From the NCBI GenBank assembly GCA_947302355.1, contig CAMYUU010000004.1, positions 1 through 64,000 of the forward strand: a DNA stretch of 64,000 nt, written 5' to 3'. Position 1 is the stretch's first letter, and each line of letters opens with the position of its first letter. The notes under the pieces were generated by a model. The model saw nothing but the letters and a program-made list of their open reading frames with translations, did no database searches and had not been told where the DNA came from. This document shows positions 5,909 through 56,983 of this stretch, piece by piece. This DNA is from an uncultured Candidatus Saccharibacteria bacterium. Lineage in GTDB: Bacteria; Patescibacteriota; Saccharimonadia; Saccharimonadales; Saccharimonadaceae. The translations under genes and the position numbers were made by a program.

Positions 5909-6310
5909 ATGTCTATACAATCAACAGACCAAATTGCAGATCTTATTACGCGTATGCGTAATGCGATTATGGCTGGAAAGAATGAAATACTTGTCCCTAC
6001 CTCAAGACTGAAGACGCAGGTGGTGGAAGTGCTAGAGAAAAATGGCTATATTTCGAGCTTTGAAGTCAAAGATGAAAATCCTCGTGGAATTTTAAGAGTT
6101 ATCATTAATGAAGAAGGTGAAAACCCAAAGATTAATGAGATTACGAAGGTCTCAAAGCCTGGACAGAGAGTTTATTCTGCTGCGAATGATTTGCCAACCG
6201 TTAAATCTGGTCGTGGCATGGTCATTGTGTCCACTTCGAAAGGTTTAATGACGGGACGAGATGCCAAAAAGAATCGTTTAGGTGGTGAAATACTAGTAAA
6301 AGTTTGGTAA
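5909..6310 (+). CDS. rpsH: 30S ribosomal protein S8
   Basis: DQIADLITRMRNAIMAGK; GRGMVIVSTSKGLMTGRDAKKNRLGGEILVKVW. Confidence 0.97.
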   Translation: MSIQSTDQIADLITRMRNAIMAGKNEILVPTSRLKTQVVEVLEKNGYISSFEVKDENPRGILRVIINEEGENPKINEITKVSKPGQRVYSAANDLPTVKSGRGMVIVSTSKGLMTGRDAKKNRLGGEILVKVW

Positions 6311-6314
6311 AAAC

Positions 6315-6343
6315 AAAAAGTGGCCCTTCGGGGCCATTTTTTG
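6315..6343 (+). terminator. Rho-independent terminator after rpsH
   Basis: TGGCCC-TTCG-GGGCCA followed by TTTTTT. Confidence 0.85.
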
Positions 6344-6425
6344 TTGCTAGGGAAAATGCTTATCGTTGACCTCAGTTAATGGGCGTGATAAGATAGGGCA
6401 AAATTATAGAGTGAAGGAGGAGTCT

Positions 6426-9400
6426 ATGAAGTTCAAAAGACTGACTAGTGCATTTCTAGCAGTTGTGATGGTGGGCGCGAATATAATTAATGGTCTTTTG
6501 CCGGCTATGGCAGCGGATGACCCAACGGTGAGAAACCCTAGATCGGTAGAGTTGACTGATGGCGTGGTTTTATCGAAGACGGCAGAGAGTGTACCTGGGT
6601 ACGCGAATATGTGGAGAGTTACACTGAAGATTGAAGCGCCAGTAGTTACGATAACTTCGGATACCGTGCTAGTGATTGACCGTTCTGGTAGCATGAGCGG
6701 TAATCGTATGACTTTAGCTAAGTCGGCGGCTAAGTCTTTGGCTGAAGAACTTTTACCAGAAGGTAATACGGTTAACCGAATTGCGGTTATTTCTTTTGGT
6801 ACTACTATAAATGAGGAGGTTGGTTTTTCTGATGATTACGATACGGTAGCTGATGCAATTGACGATATCCAAGTAGGTGGAGGGACATTTACGCAAGGAG
6901 GATTGCATGCTGCGGCCGAGTTGATTGCGTCCTCTACGGCTACACATAAAAACGTGATTTTGCTTTCTGATGGCTTGCCTAGTTATAGCTACGCAATTAA
7001 TGATGTTGGAGATCATTTAGTGCAGGGCGGCCCTAATTTTCACTCTAATCAATTTGAAACAACAATCATTGATTCAGCGAGCGATTTTGATTATACGCGA
7101 AGAGTAGGTGATGGTGGGACGAGTATGCCAGAAAATTATGAAGTTTGGTATCAGTATTGGCATCAGGGCGATCAATATCGTTACTACAATCATGGCAATT
7201 CAGCGATTTCAGAGGCTAATTTCTTTAAGAGTAGCAACAATGGTGATCTTTGGACGATTGCATTTAATGCTGGTACTACTGGTAATAATGTGCTTGGCCA
7301 AATGGCAAGTACTGGCAAAAACAAGACTGCCAGTGAGAGCGATTTGGAAGCAATTTTTGATGAAATTGCTGGCGAAATCTCTTCATTGATTGGCAACAGC
7401 AGTGTGCATGACGTGATGGGTGAAGGCGTAATTGTGGAGAATCCACAACATTCAACTTCGCTAGATTGGACTCCTGTTTATACCTATGATGCGGCAACTG
7501 GGAAATATGTAGCAACTTATACTTATGAGGTTGAGGCAGGTGAGCATATTTTGGATGAAGATAGCACGGACGGATTTCATCCTTTAAATAAAGAAGCGAC
7601 CATAACTTATAATGGTAAAACCGAGAAGTTTCCGGTGCCATACGTGAAACCGTTTTTCGTTAATGTAGCAAAAGCGGTTGAGGGGCAGGAATGTGATGAA
7701 GGAGAATGCGTATTTGATTTTGAGATTGTGCATCCGAATGGCAATAAAACAAGTTATACGGTTGAAGCTGGCAAGACACATCGAATTATAGAAGCGTTTC
7801 CGGTTGGTGATTACACATTGACGGAAACAGGAACAAATAGTAGTAATCCAGTGGGACTTGAATATTATTTAACGTCTTATAGTGGAAATGTTTTCACAAT
7901 TAATGAGCAGCATGCTGATCATATTGATGTAACAATTAACAATAAGTACGAAACGAAGAATATTACGGCGGAAAAGGAGTGGGATGATGATAATAACCGA
8001 GATGGATTCAGGAGTAATTATGACGATTTGTATTTGGCGGTAAAGGATGGTAATAACTATGTTGCTTTTGAGAAAGTCAATACGGATGGTAGCAGTAATT
8101 CTCAAAGTTTCACGTTTGAGGATTTGCCGAAAAATCGAAATGGGGTAGAGATTAACTATACATTAGTCGAAGCGATAGGTTGTGCTGAGGTGAATAATAC
8201 GATAAGCTGTACAAGCGATTTTTCAAAAGACGATGATTACATTAGTACTGTAAGTGGTACCAAGGTGACTAATTCACATACACCAAAGACTACTACGTTG
8301 ACCATAAAGAAGAAATGGGATGTTTCGGCGGGTAACTTGCCGTCCGTGACGCCTGGATTTGTGACGGTCGAGGTCAGTAATGATAAAAACGACGATGTTG
8401 AAACTGTGACTTTGAGGGGAAATGATTATGAAGAATGGCAAGGTGATTTCGAAGGATATAAATATGAGGACGGCCAAGAGATCACATATACAGTGACGGA
8501 AAAACAAATTGGTAATAATGCTTTTGAAGTTAATAAAAGTACACTTTATATTTATAATGATTCTGTCTTAGAAGGTGAATGGGTGGCAAATTATAATGGC
8601 ACAGAGGTAACGAACGTTTGGACGCCCGCAGAAACGGTTTATTCTGGCAATGGCGAGTTCTACATTGAAAAACTTGATCAGGATGGGCAGCCTTTGCAAG
8701 GCGTAACTTTTACTGTTGGTAATGACACCTACACTACTGAAGCCGACGGAAAAGTAGCAGTAGAGTTTTCGGGAGATGACGTAGAACCGGATGATCGATA
8801 TACATTAACTGTTGAGGAAACTTCAGCTCCCGATTATTATGCACTAATTGATGGAACGGCAACAATTGAGGTAACTACAAAGCTAGATTTAGTAGTTGAT
8901 GAAGAGGGGCTAACCAATACTTATACAAAGAATTTCGAATATGCAGCTGGAACTATGGCGGACGGTTATGTTTGGAGGGCGGATGATAATACTTTGGTGG
9001 CGACAGATCAAGCTTTGGCAAAGGAACTGGAGATTGAAAAATCTTTCGAAGGAATAACTGCGGAAGCGTTTAGTGAGAAAAGCGAGATTGAATTTACGAT
9101 TACTGGGCCGGAAGGTTTTGACGAAATGACGGTTGGAATTGGAGATGATGAGTGTGAGATATCTGATAGCAAGCTAGTATGTGTTATTTCTGGAGATGAT
9201 GTTGTTTTGCCTATTGGCGAATATACGGTGGTCGAGGGTAAAGCAGACATTGAAAACTTTACATATGAAAGTGATCCTGAGAGCGGTGAAGTGTCACAAA
9301 CTGCTAAGTTTGGCGAAACAGTTAAATTTGAGCTGCAAAATACTTATACTCCGGTCAATTCGGCATCATATAAAGTTAAAAAAGTATGGGAAGATGATAA

Positions 9401-10952
9401 TAATAGAGATGGAATTCGCCCGGATGAGCTCGCAGTAACGCTTTATGCGGATGGTGAGGAATACGATTCATCTGTAAAATTGGACGAGGATGGTGAGTGG
9501 ACACACGAGTGGACTAATCTGCCATTAGTAAATGAAAACGCGGAAGAGGTAGAGTATACCGTAAAGGAGGCTGAAGTTGATGGTTATGATTCGGATGATG
9601 GTGTAGTGGAAGATGATGTGTTTGTGTTTACTAATACGCATGAACCTGAACTATATGAAGGAACTGGTGATTTGCAGGCAGAGAAAGCGTGGTCGGGTGA
9701 GGGTAATGAATTGGTAAGACCAGCAACTATTACTTTGGTGCTTTATGGTGAAATAACTGACGATGAAGGCGATGTGAAGACTTGGGTAGTTGGAAATCCG
9801 GTAGAAGTATCCGATGCCAATGAGTGGAAATGGACTTTTGAAGGGTTGTATAAATATGAGAATGGTAAAGAGATTACTTATTCGGTACAAGAGTCGGCGA
9901 TCAATGGAGTAAGCTTTGATGAAAATGAGAGTACGATAATTATTTATGAGGATGATGGTCAAGCCTTGAAGGGTAAATGGACAAGGTCTGTTTCGAACTT
10001 TGAGATAACTAATGCCTGGACGTCTGCGATTAATATTTATAATGGAGAGGACGAATTCACCATTAAGAAGATTAATGAAGGCGGCGAAGTGATGGAAGGT
10101 GTGACGTTTATGGTAGGAACGGAAGAGTATACTACGGATGAAGACGGGTTGATTAAGATTGCTGTTCCAGAAGCGACCGAAGTTGCGGAGGATGATCTTG
10201 AATATGTAATTGAGGAAATCGATACCCTGGATGGATATGATTTGGTTGAAGGTTCGGCAACCGTAGCGGTAAAAAGCGTTAGTGAGTTTGTAGAAGCGGA
10301 TATTGAGAAGTTAGAGAATACTTATAGTAAAACTTATAGTTTTTCTGCAGACGGTGATGATGGGTACGATTGGGATGCGGATGATAAGATTATGATGGTT
10401 GTAAATGAGCGTAGTAAGGCCAAGTCTCTTATGATTGAGAAGACATTTTCGGGGGTTTCAGAATCAGATTTGCAAGGTATAACCTTTACGATAACGGGTC
10501 CAGATGATTTCGGGGTTAATGGTGGAATCACGTTAGTGTTCGGTGAGGATTGTAAAGTTTCTGAAACTGTGGCGATATGTAATGTTAGTGTTGAGATCCC
10601 AACCGGTGAATACACCGTTAAAGAGAATAATGCTGAGATCGAGCATTACATTCTAACCGTTTCTGGTGATAATGGCGCGACTAAGGAAGTTGAAAAAGAT
10701 GACGAAGTTATATTTGAGATTACGAATAACTATGAAGAGATTCAGGAGCCGGAGGATCCGTGTGTAAATGGTGGTGGATGCGGCAACGATGCGCTTATAC
10801 CGACTGCTCCAGATACTGGTTCGTTTACTAAAAGTATTGATAATAGTAATGGTGAAACTAGTAGTATGATTGGTGCTATTGCTATGACTATGCTGGTAAT
10901 GTCTAGTGCGATTATGTTTAGTGTAACTGAACTTGCAAAACGAAAAAAATAA
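6426..10952 (+). CDS. Large surface adhesin: signal peptide, vWFA domain (MIDAS DRSGSMS), multiple Cna_B/SpaA-like repeats, xPDTG sorting signal + TM + KRKK tail
   Basis: MKFKRLTSAFLAVVMVGANIINGLLPAMAADD signal; DTVLVIDRSGSMSGNRM; repeated WEDDNNRDG / FTFEDLP / NTYT modules; C-term PTAPDTG...MTMLVMSSAIMFSVTELAKRKK; SD gaaggagg upstream of ATG 6426. Confidence 0.9.
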   Translation: MKFKRLTSAFLAVVMVGANIINGLLPAMAADDPTVRNPRSVELTDGVVLSKTAESVPGYANMWRVTLKIEAPVVTITSDTVLVIDRSGSMSGNRMTLAKSAAKSLAEELLPEGNTVNRIAVISFGTTINEEVGFSDDYDTVADAIDDIQVGGGTFTQGGLHAAAELIASSTATHKNVILLSDGLPSYSYAINDVGDHLVQGGPNFHSNQFETTIIDSASDFDYTRRVGDGGTSMPENYEVWYQYWHQGDQYRYYNHGNSAISEANFFKSSNNGDLWTIAFNAGTTGNNVLGQMASTGKNKTASESDLEAIFDEIAGEISSLIGNSSVHDVMGEGVIVENPQHSTSLDWTPVYTYDAATGKYVATYTYEVEAGEHILDEDSTDGFHPLNKEATITYNGKTEKFPVPYVKPFFVNVAKAVEGQECDEGECVFDFEIVHPNGNKTSYTVEAGKTHRIIEAFPVGDYTLTETGTNSSNPVGLEYYLTSYSGNVFTINEQHADHIDVTINNKYETKNITAEKEWDDDNNRDGFRSNYDDLYLAVKDGNNYVAFEKVNTDGSSNSQSFTFEDLPKNRNGVEINYTLVEAIGCAEVNNTISCTSDFSKDDDYISTVSGTKVTNSHTPKTTTLTIKKKWDVSAGNLPSVTPGFVTVEVSNDKNDDVETVTLRGNDYEEWQGDFEGYKYEDGQEITYTVTEKQIGNNAFEVNKSTLYIYNDSVLEGEWVANYNGTEVTNVWTPAETVYSGNGEFYIEKLDQDGQPLQGVTFTVGNDTYTTEADGKVAVEFSGDDVEPDDRYTLTVEETSAPDYYALIDGTATIEVTTKLDLVVDEEGLTNTYTKNFEYAAGTMADGYVWRADDNTLVATDQALAKELEIEKSFEGITAEAFSEKSEIEFTITGPEGFDEMTVGIGDDECEISDSKLVCVISGDDVVLPIGEYTVVEGKADIENFTYESDPESGEVSQTAKFGETVKFELQNTYTPVNSASYKVKKVWEDDNNRDGIRPDELAVTLYADGEEYDSSVKLDEDGEWTHEWTNLPLVNENAEEVEYTVKEAEVDGYDSDDGVVEDDVFVFTNTHEPELYEGTGDLQAEKAWSGEGNELVRPATITLVLYGEITDDEGDVKTWVVGNPVEVSDANEWKWTFEGLYKYENGKEITYSVQESAINGVSFDENESTIIIYEDDGQALKGKWTRSVSNFEITNAWTSAINIYNGEDEFTIKKINEGGEVMEGVTFMVGTEEYTTDEDGLIKIAVPEATEVAEDDLEYVIEEIDTLDGYDLVEGSATVAVKSVSEFVEADIEKLENTYSKTYSFSADGDDGYDWDADDKIMMVVNERSKAKSLMIEKTFSGVSESDLQGITFTITGPDDFGVNGGITLVFGEDCKVSETVAICNVSVEIPTGEYTVKENNAEIEHYILTVSGDNGATKEVEKDDEVIFEITNNYEEIQEPEDPCVNGGGCGNDALIPTAPDTGSFTKSIDNSNGETSSMIGAIAMTMLVMSSAIMFSVTELAKRKK

Positions 10953-10959
10953 AGATAAA

Positions 10960-10988
10960 TTGACATATAAACATAAATATGATATAAT
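10960..10988 (+). promoter_or_regulatory. Perfect consensus sigma70-type promoter TTGACA-N17-TATAAT
   Basis: TTGACA at 10960-10965, 17-nt spacer, TATAAT at 10983-10988 with TG extended -10. Confidence 0.8.
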
Positions 10989-11003
10989 TAAAGAGTGAAA
11001 CAT

Positions 11004-11030
11004 TAATCCTCTCTTCGCGAGGGGATTTTT
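11004..11030 (+). terminator. Rho-independent terminator downstream of adhesin
   Basis: AATCCTCTC-ttcg-CGAGGGGATT stem followed by TTTTT. Confidence 0.8.
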
Positions 11031-11075
11031 GTTGTGGAAAACGTTTGTGTTGCTCGAAAATTCTTACTTTTATTA

Positions 11076-11104
11076 TTGACTTAAGGATTTTAAATTAATA
11101 TAAT
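11076..11104 (+). promoter_or_regulatory. Promoter TTGACT-N17-TATAAT for second surface protein
   Basis: TTGACT 11076-11081, 17-nt spacer, TATAAT 11099-11104. Confidence 0.8.
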
Positions 11105-11130
11105 CGTAATTAGGATAAGCGGAGGAAAAA

Positions 11131-12849
11131 ATGAGTTATAAGCGATTAGCTTGTGCTTTATCAGTAGGAACTTTAGCTTTAGGGACGGGGATTATTGCTC
11201 CGTCGGTTTGGGCTGAAGGCGAGTGTGTAGCCTCTAATCTGGAAGGGTTGGAGGTTTGTCTTGCTGATGGAGAAGCAACCTCTATCACTACGACTGACAC
11301 CATCGTGGTGACTGGAGAAGATACCAACAAGACATTAGTAATCAATAAAGACATAACTGGCGCTAGCGGTAAGAATGTATTTAGTATTGAGGATGGCGCC
11401 TCGGTGACGTTGCGCGGTAGTGGTGTAATTACTGCTGGTCGTTATGGGGCTTCCGTGGATGGTGCGGAGCTCATAATTGATGGGGTTACAATTAATGCGA
11501 CAAATCCATCTTCGTACGGCATTTATGCATTAAATAATGGTCGCGTGACGATGCAAAGTGGACAAGTGGTCGCCGATTATGCTGCTTTTGCTGGAAATAA
11601 TACAACTGGAGATATGAATTTTTACATTCGGGGTGGTCAGCTAATTTCCAATAGATACCCAGCAATCTACATGCCTGGTCAGGTTGATTTAGAAATGCGA
11701 GGTGGCACGCTGACTGGTGGTATTGTAGCTAGAATGGGCCAAATTACGATTGAAGGTGGTACTATTAATGCTCAACCTAATCCAGTTTCTGATGACGGCA
11801 TCGATAAAAATTACAGTAGTATGCCTAGTGTTACGGGTGAAGCGATTACTCTTCTCGCCGGGACTTATAAAAGCGCAAATGCTGAGCATGGTAATGACAT
11901 GAATGTGGTTATTAGCGGCGATAACACTCAAATAAATGGCGATGTCGTGCTTTATGATTTAGGCAATACTGCTGCTGGCTATGAGCAAAATGTAAATGTG
12001 AGAATAGAAGATGGTCGTCTGACTGGATTCCAAACTAAGTTTACCGAAGAAGAGATTGGTTTTGCTCTTAAATCTGGTTATACTGCTGGTCTTAATAATG
12101 CGGCTGAGAGAGTCAATGTTGAGATTACTGGTGGTAAGTATATAACAGAACCAGCCGAGGAGGATATTGCTCCGGATTCTGAAGCTGAATATGACGAAGA
12201 TGCCGGTGTTTACGTGATTTGGCCAAAGCGAGTTGATTACTCCAACTGGTATATCGAAACAGATCTTAGCGAAGATCAGTTGCCTGTATTTGTAGAATTT
12301 GGTGATGTTGAGTTTATCGCTGACAGAAAGGCGACCTTATCTGCAACTGAGGTGGATACGGACGAACTCACTTTGACTGGTGAAGGCGAATTGATTGGCG
12401 CTCTAGATTTATCAATGCTTGATCGTGATGGTCATGTGATTAAGGTGAGTAACAATAGCTTGATTGTGCATATCGACTTAGATGAAGATTCTTATAATCT
12501 GTTCTCCGAATACGATAAGCTCTATGCGGTCTATTTCAACGAGGACGGTGAAGAAGTCGAGCGATTCGAGATTAATCTCGAGAGCGAAATTGATGAAGAA
12601 TTCTCTTGGTATTGGCTCTGGTTTGAAACACCACATCTATCAACTTATGGTGTGGTCGGTGTAAATGAGTCTGAGGAAGAGGGCTCGCAAGAGGCCACTG
12701 GGGCATCGACGCCAGATACTGGTACGATGACTATGGCTGGTGCTTCGGCATCAACTGCGGCGATTGTGACTGTTTTGGTAGTTGGTGTATTGACGTCGGT
12801 CGTAAGCTTTGCGTATTTGTTTAAGAAATTGTATCTCAATAGGAAGTAA
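11131..12849 (+). CDS. Secreted cell-wall-anchored protein with beta-helix-like repeats and TPDTG sorting signal
   Basis: Signal peptide MSYKRLACALSVGTLALGTGIIAPSVWA; repetitive VTMQSGQVV/LEMRGGTLTGG/ITIEGGTIN rungs; C-term STPDTG + TM + KKLYLNRK. Confidence 0.85.
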   Translation: MSYKRLACALSVGTLALGTGIIAPSVWAEGECVASNLEGLEVCLADGEATSITTTDTIVVTGEDTNKTLVINKDITGASGKNVFSIEDGASVTLRGSGVITAGRYGASVDGAELIIDGVTINATNPSSYGIYALNNGRVTMQSGQVVADYAAFAGNNTTGDMNFYIRGGQLISNRYPAIYMPGQVDLEMRGGTLTGGIVARMGQITIEGGTINAQPNPVSDDGIDKNYSSMPSVTGEAITLLAGTYKSANAEHGNDMNVVISGDNTQINGDVVLYDLGNTAAGYEQNVNVRIEDGRLTGFQTKFTEEEIGFALKSGYTAGLNNAAERVNVEITGGKYITEPAEEDIAPDSEAEYDEDAGVYVIWPKRVDYSNWYIETDLSEDQLPVFVEFGDVEFIADRKATLSATEVDTDELTLTGEGELIGALDLSMLDRDGHVIKVSNNSLIVHIDLDEDSYNLFSEYDKLYAVYFNEDGEEVERFEINLESEIDEEFSWYWLWFETPHLSTYGVVGVNESEEEGSQEATGASTPDTGTMTMAGASASTAAIVTVLVVGVLTSVVSFAYLFKKLYLNRK

Positions 12850-12873
12850 TTAAGACACATGACGCAAATAAAA

Positions 12874-12898
12874 AGATCCCCCGTAAGGGGGATTTTTT
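12874..12898 (+). terminator. Rho-independent terminator
   Basis: ATCCCCC-gtaa-GGGGGAT followed by TTTTT. Confidence 0.85.
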
Positions 12899-12912
12899 GT
12901 AGGGGTTTTTGC

Positions 12913-12941
12913 TTGAAATTTTATCCATCTCGTGATATAAT
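12913..12941 (+). promoter_or_regulatory. Promoter for rplF segment of spc operon
   Basis: TTGAAA 12913-12918, 17-nt spacer, TGATATAAT with TATAAT 12936-12941. Confidence 0.75.
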
Positions 12942-12972
12942 TGTTTGGATATTAACATAACAGGGGAATAAT

Positions 12973-13509
12973 ATGAGTCGTATCGGAAAACAACCCATCG
13001 AGATTCCGGCGGGAGTGACAATTACGGTCGGCGAGAGTGAGATTACTGTCGCGGGCCCAAAGGGTCAGCTCAACGTCCCAGTGCAACCCAAAACCAAGGT
13101 TAATGTTGATGGCGCAGTGGCTACGGTTACCCGTGAGGATGACGAACCAAAATCCCGTGCTTGGCACGGTTTGCAGCGTGCATTACTCAATAATGCAGTG
13201 CAAGGAGTAACTAAGGGTTACGAAAAGAAACTAGAGATTAATGGCGTAGGCTACCGTCTTTCTGGTGGCGGCCAAGAAATCGAAATGGCGCTTGGATTTT
13301 CGCATCCAGTAAAGTATAAGGCGCCCGAAGGCGTGCAACTTACTACCAACAAAATGGAAATTACCGTTTCTGGTATCGATAAGCAAAAAGTTGGACAAGT
13401 AGCAGCTGAGATTCGTAGCCTCAAGAAACCTGAACCATATAAGGGCAAAGGTATCAAGTATGTTGACGAAGTAATTCTTCGCAAAGCAGGAAAGGCTGGT
13501 AAGAAATAA
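12973..13509 (+). CDS. rplF: 50S ribosomal protein L6
   Basis: MSRIGKQPIEIPAGVTITV; PEPYKGKGIKYVDEVILRKAGKAGKK. Confidence 0.97.
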   Translation: MSRIGKQPIEIPAGVTITVGESEITVAGPKGQLNVPVQPKTKVNVDGAVATVTREDDEPKSRAWHGLQRALLNNAVQGVTKGYEKKLEINGVGYRLSGGGQEIEMALGFSHPVKYKAPEGVQLTTNKMEITVSGIDKQKVGQVAAEIRSLKKPEPYKGKGIKYVDEVILRKAGKAGKK

Positions 13510-16095: not shown

Positions 16096-17070
16096 TTAAT
16101 TCGGGAAGGGGCGGTTCAGGACACTAGTGATGTCGTCGTCGTAGAATACCCTAGTGAAACCAGAAACATCGGCCAGGCCGTGTACTTTAGCTTTGTCGAA
16201 GACTACTGCGTTTTCTCGGATAGTGGCGGAACCGTAGATTTCGGCTTCGCCAAAGACCTTGGCGACTCCCTGAATGTCAGCTTTGCCACTAACCTTGACT
16301 TCATCGAGAATGACGACATGTCCATGGACTGCGGCATTACCCTCAATGATGTTTGCGCTGAAGATTCGGGCGTGTTCGTAGATTTGAGCTCGTCCGGTAA
16401 TGGTGCCACCATAGATTTCGACTTCACCGTGGGCTTTGGCTTCGCCAGTAACAACAGCGGAACCTCCGATTCTTGCATTGCCATAGACTCTGGCTTCGCC
16501 AGAAATTTCGGCGTACCCGAGAATTTGGGCTTGGCCGAAGACATGGGCTTTTCCTTTGATTCTGGCTTCCTGACTCACATGTGCTTCGCTGTCTATGCTG
16601 GCATATTCGCAGACAATGACATCGTCGCCGATTGTGGCCGATCCCATGATTTTGGCGTGGCCACTTACTGAAGCTTTGCCAAAAACTCTTGCATCGTTGC
16701 TAATTTTGGCATATTCTTCAATGATGGCCTCGTTGCAGACGTGTGCTGCGTTACGGATTTCGGCGTATCCCCAGGCTTCAGCATTGTCTTGAATGCTGGC
16801 TGTGCCGGAGATTTCGGCGCAATCGTGTATCGTGGCATCGTTTAAAACAGTCGCTTGTCCGTACGCCTTGGCGTCGTCGAAAACCCAGCAGTTTCCTTTC
16901 TGGCTAAGATTGTTTTTGCTCTCGACCCATCCTCCGTAATCTCCTTTTTTGACAAATGAGCCGATGCTCCTGAGTGCGCGAATACGATGAAGGGTCTTGA
17001 ACTCAAGGTTATCCAAAATCCTAATCGTTTCGCTAGTCAATTCGTACTTTAGCTCTTCCATTCTTATCAC
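16096..17070 (-). CDS. YdcK-like left-handed parallel beta-helix (hexapeptide repeat) protein
   Basis: GGWVESKNNLSQKGNCWVFDDAKAYGQATV N-terminal motif plus about 40 [AV]x[IV]xGxA-type hexapeptide rungs; resembles E. coli YdcK from memory. Confidence 0.75.
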   Translation of the reverse strand: MIRMEELKYELTSETIRILDNLEFKTLHRIRALRSIGSFVKKGDYGGWVESKNNLSQKGNCWVFDDAKAYGQATVLNDATIHDCAEISGTASIQDNAEAWGYAEIRNAAHVCNEAIIEEYAKISNDARVFGKASVSGHAKIMGSATIGDDVIVCEYASIDSEAHVSQEARIKGKAHVFGQAQILGYAEISGEARVYGNARIGGSAVVTGEAKAHGEVEIYGGTITGRAQIYEHARIFSANIIEGNAAVHGHVVILDEVKVSGKADIQGVAKVFGEAEIYGSATIRENAVVFDKAKVHGLADVSGFTRVFYDDDITSVLNRPFPN

Positions 17071-54879: not shown

Positions 54880-56313
54880 ATGCATTTCAAGACTATTTTC
54901 AAATCCCTAAAGAATAAAGATATGTTGAAGCGAGTATTTATTATACTCGGTATTATTCTGGCTTATAGATTATTAGCGCAGATTCCTGTACCGATGGGTG
55001 ATGCGTCTACTTTTAAAGAAGCTGTATCAAATCTAATGGAAAAGTCTGATTTTTCGAGTTTCCTAAATTTGATTTCTGGTGGCGGTTTGGCTTCATTTAG
55101 TATTATTTTGGTTGGTTTATCTCCATATATTACTGGCTCAATTGTGATCCAACTTTTAACTAAGGCTATTCCTTCTCTTGAGGAGATTTCGAACGATGGA
55201 GAAACTGGGCGTCGCAAGATTAATCAGTGGACGAGAATTTTGACGGTTCCTCTTGCAATTGTTCAGTCTATCGCCTATATCTTTATTCTTTATCAGTCAA
55301 CTTTGTCAGCAAATATCGCTTCTGATTTTACGCCTACTTTTAATGATTGGGCGCTGTCGGTAACCGCTATGACTGCGGGTTCGGTAATTTTGATGTGGTT
55401 AGGTGAGTTGATTACGGAGCAAGGTATCGGAAATGGTATTTCTATGTTGATTTTTGCTTCTATAATTTCGCAATTGCCGACCACGATGGCTTCTCTTGGT
55501 GCGTCGCTATTTGACACTAGCGAGGGGACGCTTAACCTGTTTGGATGGTTAGATATACCAGTAAATCCGACGACATTTTGGATTCTGCTTGGATTTAGTG
55601 TAGCTATGCTAATAGTTATTTATTTCTTAGTGAAGTTGAATGAGGCACAACGCATTATTACTATTAACTATGCTAAGAGGGTACATGGAAATTCATCCTA
55701 CGGAGGAATTAAGTCGATTTTGCCAATAAAGCTAATTGCAGCTGGCGTAATTCCGGTTATTTTCGCGACTGCCTTCTTGTCGCTTCCAGCGTTGGTGGGT
55801 CAGGTAATCACTTCTATAGATTCGGGGAATGAGTTTGGCCAGTCGTTGATTACTATTTTTTCTGCTCCTTCGGCTAATAATTTTGCGGTTATGTATCCGG
55901 ATGGAATAACTGCACAGTGGTTTGTTTATCCGGCATTATATTTCGTATTGGTATTTATCTTTACGTATTTTTACACCTCTATTATCTTTAACACTAAGGA
56001 AATCGCCGATAATCTACAAAAACAAGGTGGTTTCATTGAGGGTGTGAGGCCGGGTATTACTACGGCAAATTATTTAAGTAAGGTTGTAAATAGACTTGAT
56101 TTGTTTGGGGCATTAGCTTTGGGCTTGATTGCGATGTTGCCATTCATTACTGATTATGTCTTTATTTTGACAACTGGCGCACCAATTGGCTTATCGATTT
56201 CTGGTACTGGTCTTTTGATCGTGGTGACGGTGGCACTTGAGAATCTACGGTCGATAGATTCAAGAGCATTAATGATAACATACGACGATTTTGATAATGA
56301 GTCTAGAGATTAA
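54880..56313 (+). CDS. secY: Protein translocase subunit SecY
   Basis: RVFIILGIILAYRLLAQIPVP; GISMLIFASI; IKLIAAGVIPVIFATAFLSLP; 10 TM segments. Confidence 0.96.
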   Translation: MHFKTIFKSLKNKDMLKRVFIILGIILAYRLLAQIPVPMGDASTFKEAVSNLMEKSDFSSFLNLISGGGLASFSIILVGLSPYITGSIVIQLLTKAIPSLEEISNDGETGRRKINQWTRILTVPLAIVQSIAYIFILYQSTLSANIASDFTPTFNDWALSVTAMTAGSVILMWLGELITEQGIGNGISMLIFASIISQLPTTMASLGASLFDTSEGTLNLFGWLDIPVNPTTFWILLGFSVAMLIVIYFLVKLNEAQRIITINYAKRVHGNSSYGGIKSILPIKLIAAGVIPVIFATAFLSLPALVGQVITSIDSGNEFGQSLITIFSAPSANNFAVMYPDGITAQWFVYPALYFVLVFIFTYFYTSIIFNTKEIADNLQKQGGFIEGVRPGITTANYLSKVVNRLDLFGALALGLIAMLPFITDYVFILTTGAPIGLSISGTGLLIVVTVALENLRSIDSRALMITYDDFDNESRD

Positions 56314-56983
56314 GGGTTGGCGCAAAATTATAAAGTGGGTGGCTTGGTCGATCCTAGCTGGTTTATTCTTGATATTTTTAATTAGGGTTGCGGTTTTTGA
56401 AGGGCAGTATTATAGCGAAAAAGAAGGCAGTGAACGGGTTGTGCTAAATTCTAACGATTCTGGGGAAGAACTAATCGAAGTAGAGCCGACGGAAGAAGAG
56501 GTGAGGGAGTATAAAGTAGCCCCCGACCGTCCACGGTATTTGTCAATTGAAAAACTTGGAATATCGAAGGCTAGGATTCTGGCTATGGGCGTGAATGCCG
56601 CCGGGGAATTGGATACGCCGCAAAATATATTTGATGTAGGATGGTACGAAGCATCTGGTAAGCCTGGTCAGGGCGGCACTATGATTATTGATGGTCATAA
56701 TGGTGGTCCGCATGTGCTCGGAGTTTTCAAGAATACTCCTAAGCTTTCTGAGGGTGACATTGTCACTGTGGAGCGAGGAGATGGCGTGATTTATAATTAT
56801 TCAGTCGTGGAGAATAATTCCGTGCCCTTGGATGAAGCAGATACATATATGGCGACAGCTGCTAAATCACCTGTTTCGGGGAAAGAATCGGTTACTTTGA
56901 TTACGTGTACTGGTGAATGGTCGCAAAGTCAAGGTACTTATTTATCGCGTCAGTTCACGAGAGCTGTACTCGTAGAAGAATAG
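56291..56983 (+). CDS. Sortase (class D/E-like), membrane-anchored
   Basis: N-terminal TM; DGHNGGPHVLGVFKNTPKLSEGDIVTV (His), SVTLITCTGEWSQSQGTYLSRQFTRAVLV (Cys, Arg). Confidence 0.88.
   Translation: MIMSLEIKGWRKIIKWVAWSILAGLFLIFLIRVAVFEGQYYSEKEGSERVVLNSNDSGEELIEVEPTEEEVREYKVAPDRPRYLSIEKLGISKARILAMGVNAAGELDTPQNIFDVGWYEASGKPGQGGTMIIDGHNGGPHVLGVFKNTPKLSEGDIVTVERGDGVIYNYSVVENNSVPLDEADTYMATAAKSPVSGKESVTLITCTGEWSQSQGTYLSRQFTRAVLVEE

Follow-up and report, generated by a model that had tools for sequence, protein, structure and literature searches.

Ribosomal-protein operons are regarded as among the most stable elements of bacterial gene order, and the locus described here raises the question of why one of them, in a member of the Saccharibacteria, minute cells that live as epibionts of other bacteria, should be opened to admit genes for large surface proteins. 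The window analysed is a stretch of 64,000 nucleotides (contig C4:1-64000) from G000, a 727-kb Saccharibacteria-type genome. The original prediction portrayed the arrangement as a particular event in one genome. Comparison across the genus instead reveals that most species carry cargo at the junction between rpsH and rplF, frequently a homologous adhesin and, in many species, capsule loci. We consider it likely that throughout this genus of gut Saccharibacteria the junction serves as a variable locus for the cell surface, a permissive slot whose content is exchanged.

A split ribosomal-protein operon and its two surface proteins

In the window rpsH and rplF are separated by 6,662 bp (positions 6311-12972) that hold two surface-protein genes, here A1 and A2, in agreement with the original prediction. 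The features of the locus, in which all promoters and terminators are consensus predictions, are as follows.

5909-6310, + strand: rpsH (S8), final gene before the operon is split (PF00410, 1.3e-40)
about 6314-6343, + strand: hairpin of a predicted intrinsic terminator after rpsH (CAAAAAGTGGCCCTTCGGGGCCATTTTTTG), consensus match
6358-6394, + strand: predicted adhesin promoter block (GCTTATCGTTGACC...TGATAAGAT), 9/12 with TG extension, putative function
6426-10952, + strand: A1 gene, 1508 aa, ATG at 6426 with a Shine-Dalgarno sequence
10960-11027, + strand: predicted perfect promoter (TTGACA-N17-TATAAT, 12/12), then an immediate terminator hairpin
11076-11104, + strand: predicted A2 promoter (TTGACT-N17-TATAAT, 11/12)
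11131-12849, + strand: A2 gene, 572 aa
12877-12891, + strand: predicted terminator stem-loop after A2, consensus match
12913-12941, + strand: predicted dedicated rplF promoter (TTGAAA-N17-TATAAT, 11/12 consensus) with extended -10 (TG)
12973-13509, + strand: rplF (L6), opening the downstream half (TIGR03654, 2.6e-69)
to 15165, + strand: downstream half, rplF-rplR-rpsE-rplO
56291-56983, + strand: sortase (PF04203), candidate for the anchoring of A1 and A2

A1 has the organization of a sortase-anchored adhesin. Its Pfam domains comprise a VWA domain (PF13519, 2e-16; PF00092, 4e-14), four Cna_B stretches that form stalk repeats (PF05738, 6.2e-47) and two SpaA stretches, and a DRSGS sequence agrees with the MIDAS DxSxS pattern. 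The N-terminus resembles a signal peptide, and the C-terminus combines APDTG, a variant of LPXTG, with a transmembrane helix and KRKK. Sequence comparison with the PDB matches A1 to the B-repeats of the Staphylococcus aureus collagen adhesin CNA (1d2p, 5.4e-42) and to the VWA region of Porphyromonas gingivalis Mfa5 (6to1, 1.8e-23). A2 ends in a comparable tail (TPDTG, transmembrane segment, basic residues) and matches no family in Pfam or NCBIfam. As to the expectation that A2 is beta-helix-like, the AlphaFold model is mostly beta with a solenoid-like N-terminal half (mean pLDDT 64), and its PDB matches include solenoid proteins (tailspikes, dextranase, Limosilactobacillus reuteri SRRP and PfbA), none of them at E<=0.001, so that a beta-helix-like fold is plausible, not proven. 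Paralogs of A1 and A2 were not detectable elsewhere in G000, which encodes two sortases (PF04203), the second at contig C3:70405-70809. One of the two probably anchors A1 and A2 to the wall, where they probably establish contact with a host bacterium or a gut surface.

The signals that bound the insert also conform to what was originally proposed, namely terminators after rpsH and after A2 and a new promoter for rplF, each present as a consensus match. The score of the rplF promoter was equalled in 0 of 200 shuffles. Block 6358-6394 (GCTTATCGTTG) has similar copies 5′ of A1-type adhesins in G222, G282, G273, G062, G142 and L007, making seven genomes with the window; in the G062 copy the spacer contains CCTGT-TTG-ACAGG, a possible operator. 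At the window site no tRNA was found and nearby sequence gave no Rfam match. Just past the end of the operon (16096-17070, - strand) lies a gene for a 324-aa protein of degenerate hexapeptide-like repeats (EIYGSATIRENAVVFDKAKVHG...).

Size, cargo and boundary signals of the slot across the genus

The genus set consists of the window and 37 further members in which rpsH and rplF lie on one contig (n=38), one genome per species and mostly metagenome-type draft assemblies. The gap ranges from 18 to 29,347 bp and exceeds 500 bp in 31 of the 38, a sample in which large inserts are possibly under-counted because both genes had to lie on one contig; the shortest gaps are 18, 35, 38, 53 and 59 bp. Public relatives span a similar range (L005, from goat duodenum, 5,406 bp; L007, 6,667 bp; L009, 3,132 bp; L010, 8,599 bp; L011, 59 bp). 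Thirteen other ribosomal-protein junctions in the same genus genomes measure 272 bp or less throughout, and general operon breakage was rejected because these junctions are intact. The median gap is 40 bp in other genera of the family, where gaps above 500 bp occur in 16 of 65 genomes, by inspection mostly with non-surface cargo, and among the fetched loci of more distant taxa the gap is 5-252 bp. Genus g60 (G060, L129-L130) has 35 kb between rpsH and rplF that include elongation-factor-like and rpoB/rpoC-like genes (N-terminal residues only), a split more suggestive of a rearrangement than of inserted cargo.

The cargo, with insert open reading frames called by a simple script, falls into a small number of kinds. 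Surface proteins with sorting-type tails occupy the slot in G228, G237, G249, G233, G175, G222, G266, G282, G271, G230, L005, L007 and the window. Capsule or exopolysaccharide loci, some of them preceded by an adhesin, are found in G062, G142, G150, G163, G219, G241, G244, G247, G259, G261, G273, G290 and G293, and remnants of capsule loci in G272 and G292. Other cargo is present in G278 (an arginine deiminase set), G267, G286, G201, L009 and L010; since such non-surface genes, which include hypothetical proteins, make up 6 of the 34 classed insert-bearing members, the slot is not exclusively for surface genes. The Pfam content of the capsule cargo includes Wzz with a kinase-type ATPase, CpsB_CapC, LytR-CpsA-Psr (LCP), a priming sugar transferase, UDP-sugar dehydrogenase, Wzy_C/EpsG and glycosyltransferases. 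These Wzx/Wzy-type loci finish with LCP-Wzz/kinase-CpsB adjoining rplF. Such a capsule locus was recognized in relatives such as G062, G142 and G247 and not in the window genome, in which neither Wzz-kinase nor CpsB was found.

The A1 family occurs in 31 genomes, in 28 of which it lies beside rpsH or upstream of rplF by contig coordinates; the exceptions are G291, which has an empty rpsH-rplF site and its A1 copy on another contig, and two genomes without an assigned position (G310, G378). Wzz-kinase (>=49% identity) was detected in 61 of 174 genomes. Among the 56 of these in which rplF was located it lies directly upstream of that gene in 33, and the remainder are mostly on another contig, with rplF at a contig start in several. 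Sampling of 61 genera found CpsB in just 2. In G237 (L226, C2:96500-113500) an LCP-Wzz-CpsB capsule end stands directly upstream of rplC and an adhesin at rpsH-rplF, so that the rplC site is a second address within ribosomal-protein operons.

A common frame of predicted signals surrounds this varied content. An extended -10 promoter is situated about 20-35 nt 5′ of rplF in 42 of 43 genus members, namely all that bear inserts and 5 of 6 empty sites (<60 bp); G265 is the member without it, and the scores of G255 and G267 rise only weakly over those of shuffles. No significant promoter was detected at this position in 11 outgroup loci. A terminator follows rpsH at 36 of 37 filled sites (versus 12% of shuffles), and one precedes rplF at 19 of 37 (versus 11%), mainly in the surface-protein class. 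Most capsule-type inserts have no terminator before rplF, and read-through into rplF is possible there. Taken together, the operon halves look insulated, as the original prediction argued, to the extent that boundary sequences can be read as working signals. In G235 an A2-like gene still follows rpsH, and the rplF unit stands behind rpsB-tsf at a distance of about 72 kb, which agrees with autonomy of the downstream half. Most empty sites still have the promoter, which suggests that many of them were emptied secondarily; parsimony leaves the root state unsettled (8 versus 9 changes).

The same insulation bears on the proposal that surface genes benefit from adjacency to highly expressed genes. 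That advantage is unsupported, since the predicted terminators and separate promoters appear to wall the slot off, and the observations agree better with a permissive slot between conserved flanks than with shared expression.

Two further elements were noted. A perfect or near-perfect predicted sigma-70 promoter that leads directly into a terminator hairpin recurs after surface genes in the window (10960-11027), G222, G282, G271 and L005 (6329-6398); five such modules occur in inserts, none in a local shuffle and one in the 64-kb window. At most these would yield a very short transcript, and the module may represent a tiny RNA or an older rplF promoter that has been orphaned. In other genera (L137, L138, L143, L141, L142) rplF is preceded by a similar leader (TTGCGAGTGAAATC...GATTTTGCGC...) without an Rfam match, possibly a ribosomal-protein leader RNA.

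Turnover of content and how it may arise

The content of the slot changes between species to a degree that the flanking genes do not. On a tree built from 15 ribosomal-protein genes the cargo class requires at least 18 changes, compared with 25.3 +/- 1.9 when shuffled, and thus shows some inheritance and much change; the filled or empty state requires at least 8. Sister species provide examples. G265 has a gap of 18 bp and its sister G228 one of 1,619 bp. G247 and G219 have rpsH, rplF and the LCP-Wzz-CpsB end in common around a middle without clear orthologs. The middle has likewise been replaced between G150 and G241, which agree in the adhesin (88%), in the early enzymes (about 80%) and at the locus end. 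G089 retains 76 aa in which a signal peptide is fused to a transmembrane tail, and we read G089, G272 and G292 as decay relics. With one genome per species, these comparisons show turnover between species.

How far can simple descent, error or chance account for these patterns? One reading is that the genus ancestor possessed the A1-A2 pair and that species have since diverged from it or lost it. The order rpsH-A1-A2-rplF is also found in G300 (L223; A1 74% and A2 68% identical), the nearest match to the window, and in G282, rpsH-A1-A2 occurs in G116 (L229), and the position is common across the genus; an ordinary ancestral arrangement shared by all relatives thus holds for the position and fails for the contents. 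Cargo differs between sister species, and A1 similarity is independent of ribosomal-protein distance (rho = -0.05, p = 0.68, over 66 non-independent pairs), making static ancestry very unlikely. The same three assemblies dispose of the suspicion that unrelated contigs were joined by chimeric assembly or misbinning. The assemblies are drafts, and G300, listed as 5% contaminated, shows strain mixing, with two rplF copies of which the second has a different adhesin tail upstream; the junction type is nevertheless found again in dozens of independent assemblies, in many of them deep within contigs of 100-300 kb, and with matching boundary signals. Assembly error was accordingly rejected, and we give it virtually no weight.

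Explanations that invoke the site itself demand more attention. After gain of the rplF promoter the junction may simply tolerate DNA, with surface genes present by chance, which would explain the mostly non-surface inserts of other genera and the minority of other cargo within the genus. We regard such a neutral slot as unlikely, since the placement of A1 (28 of 31) and of Wzz-kinase beside rplF (33 of 56) is far above random landing and the order adhesin, glycan genes, LCP-Wzz-CpsB recurs. Alternatively, an integrase or conjugative element could target the 3′ end of rpsH, in the manner of streptococcal ICEs and IMEs, for which rpsI, rpmG and rplL are reportedly treated as sites. Variation of cargo at one exact site and this precedent of ribosomal-protein genes speak for a site-specific mobile element; the 30 inserts searched contain no tyrosine integrase (PF00589, the only recombinase class searched systematically), and neither flanking direct repeats nor a tRNA mark the window site. 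An integrase island was rejected on these grounds, and we judge a mobile element of this type to be improbable.

The variable surface locus that we favor can be described as a sequence of steps. The rpsH terminator and the dedicated extended -10 rplF promoter would render the operon halves independent, and with independent halves the junction becomes a permissive slot. Species would then fill it with sortase-type adhesins, capsule or exopolysaccharide loci, or both; in G000 the slot holds A1, with its VWA head on Cna_B stalk repeats, together with A2, each under its own predicted promoter. Contents would be swapped as the flanking ribosomal genes stay in place, most simply by homologous recombination through the conserved flanks after natural transformation. 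Another Saccharibacterium, Southlakia, is naturally competent and recombines through flanks of about 1 kb (PMC10633639); from this competence, the lack of tyrosine integrases and the lack of bracketing repeats we infer exchange by homologous recombination. Upstream and downstream flank distances correlate (rho 0.91), and their comparison gave no clear sign of co-transferred flanks. Between L005 and the window S8 identity is low and L6 identity high.

Epibiotic growth of Southlakia needed adhesin-like proteins, exopolysaccharide genes and an arginine deiminase system (PMC10633639), the same kinds of genes that occur as slot cargo. It is tempting, and for now speculative, to view the junction as a dedicated surface-switching locus, in which competent epibionts use the standing frame of rpsH terminator and rplF promoter to replace the entire set of host-contact genes, whether adhesin, capsule or the two together, via the ribosomal flanks and thereby alter which host can be ridden. 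In sum, the operon may double as the surface-identity locus of the genus. If so, the surfaces of uncultured gut Saccharibacteria could be typed at one readily amplified locus that lies between two universal genes, and the link between surface type and host choice, an open question for the phylum, would become testable. The locus also illustrates how an essential operon may be opened safely, by providing each half with its own predicted start and stop.

Relation to known variable loci

Capsule (cps/K) loci such as pneumococcal cps sit between fixed housekeeping genes, and the slot resembles loci of this type in its fixed flanks, in the Wzz, kinase, CpsB and LCP genes at one end, in a variable middle of glycosyltransferase, polymerase and flippase genes, and in the differences between close relatives. 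It departs from them in that both flanks belong to one ribosomal-protein operon, in that it may hold adhesins alone (as in the window), capsule genes or both, and in that its owner is a Patescibacterium. A1 is similar by sequence to MSCRAMM-type sortase-anchored adhesins (CNA) in its B-repeats and to Mfa5 in its VWA domain, and differs from MSCRAMMs in having APDTG in place of LPXTG and in its chromosomal setting. With streptococcal ICEs and IMEs, the subject of PMC4701971 and PMC5357655, the slot shares a ribosomal-protein gene boundary as the insertion point; unlike them, its inserts are without tyrosine integrase, no transfer module was noticed in them, and the cargo is mainly for the surface.

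Insertions into translation operons have precedents. In the str-S10-spc cluster of Bacilli and Gammaproteobacteria there are few of them, they consist of metabolic genes placed mainly between operons, and they show no sign of long-distance transfer (PMC8046335), and the spc operon is only listed as conserved in PMC1924603. Those cases and the present one have in common that genes are placed within or between conserved translation operons; the genus described here differs by its single junction, repeated turnover and surface cargo. A literature search with little coverage of subscription journals found no published report of a genus whose most variable surface genes lie inside a ribosomal-protein operon. 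The architecture works like a capsule or serotype locus, and what appears to be new is the address, the adhesin-only versions and the group of organisms in which it is found.
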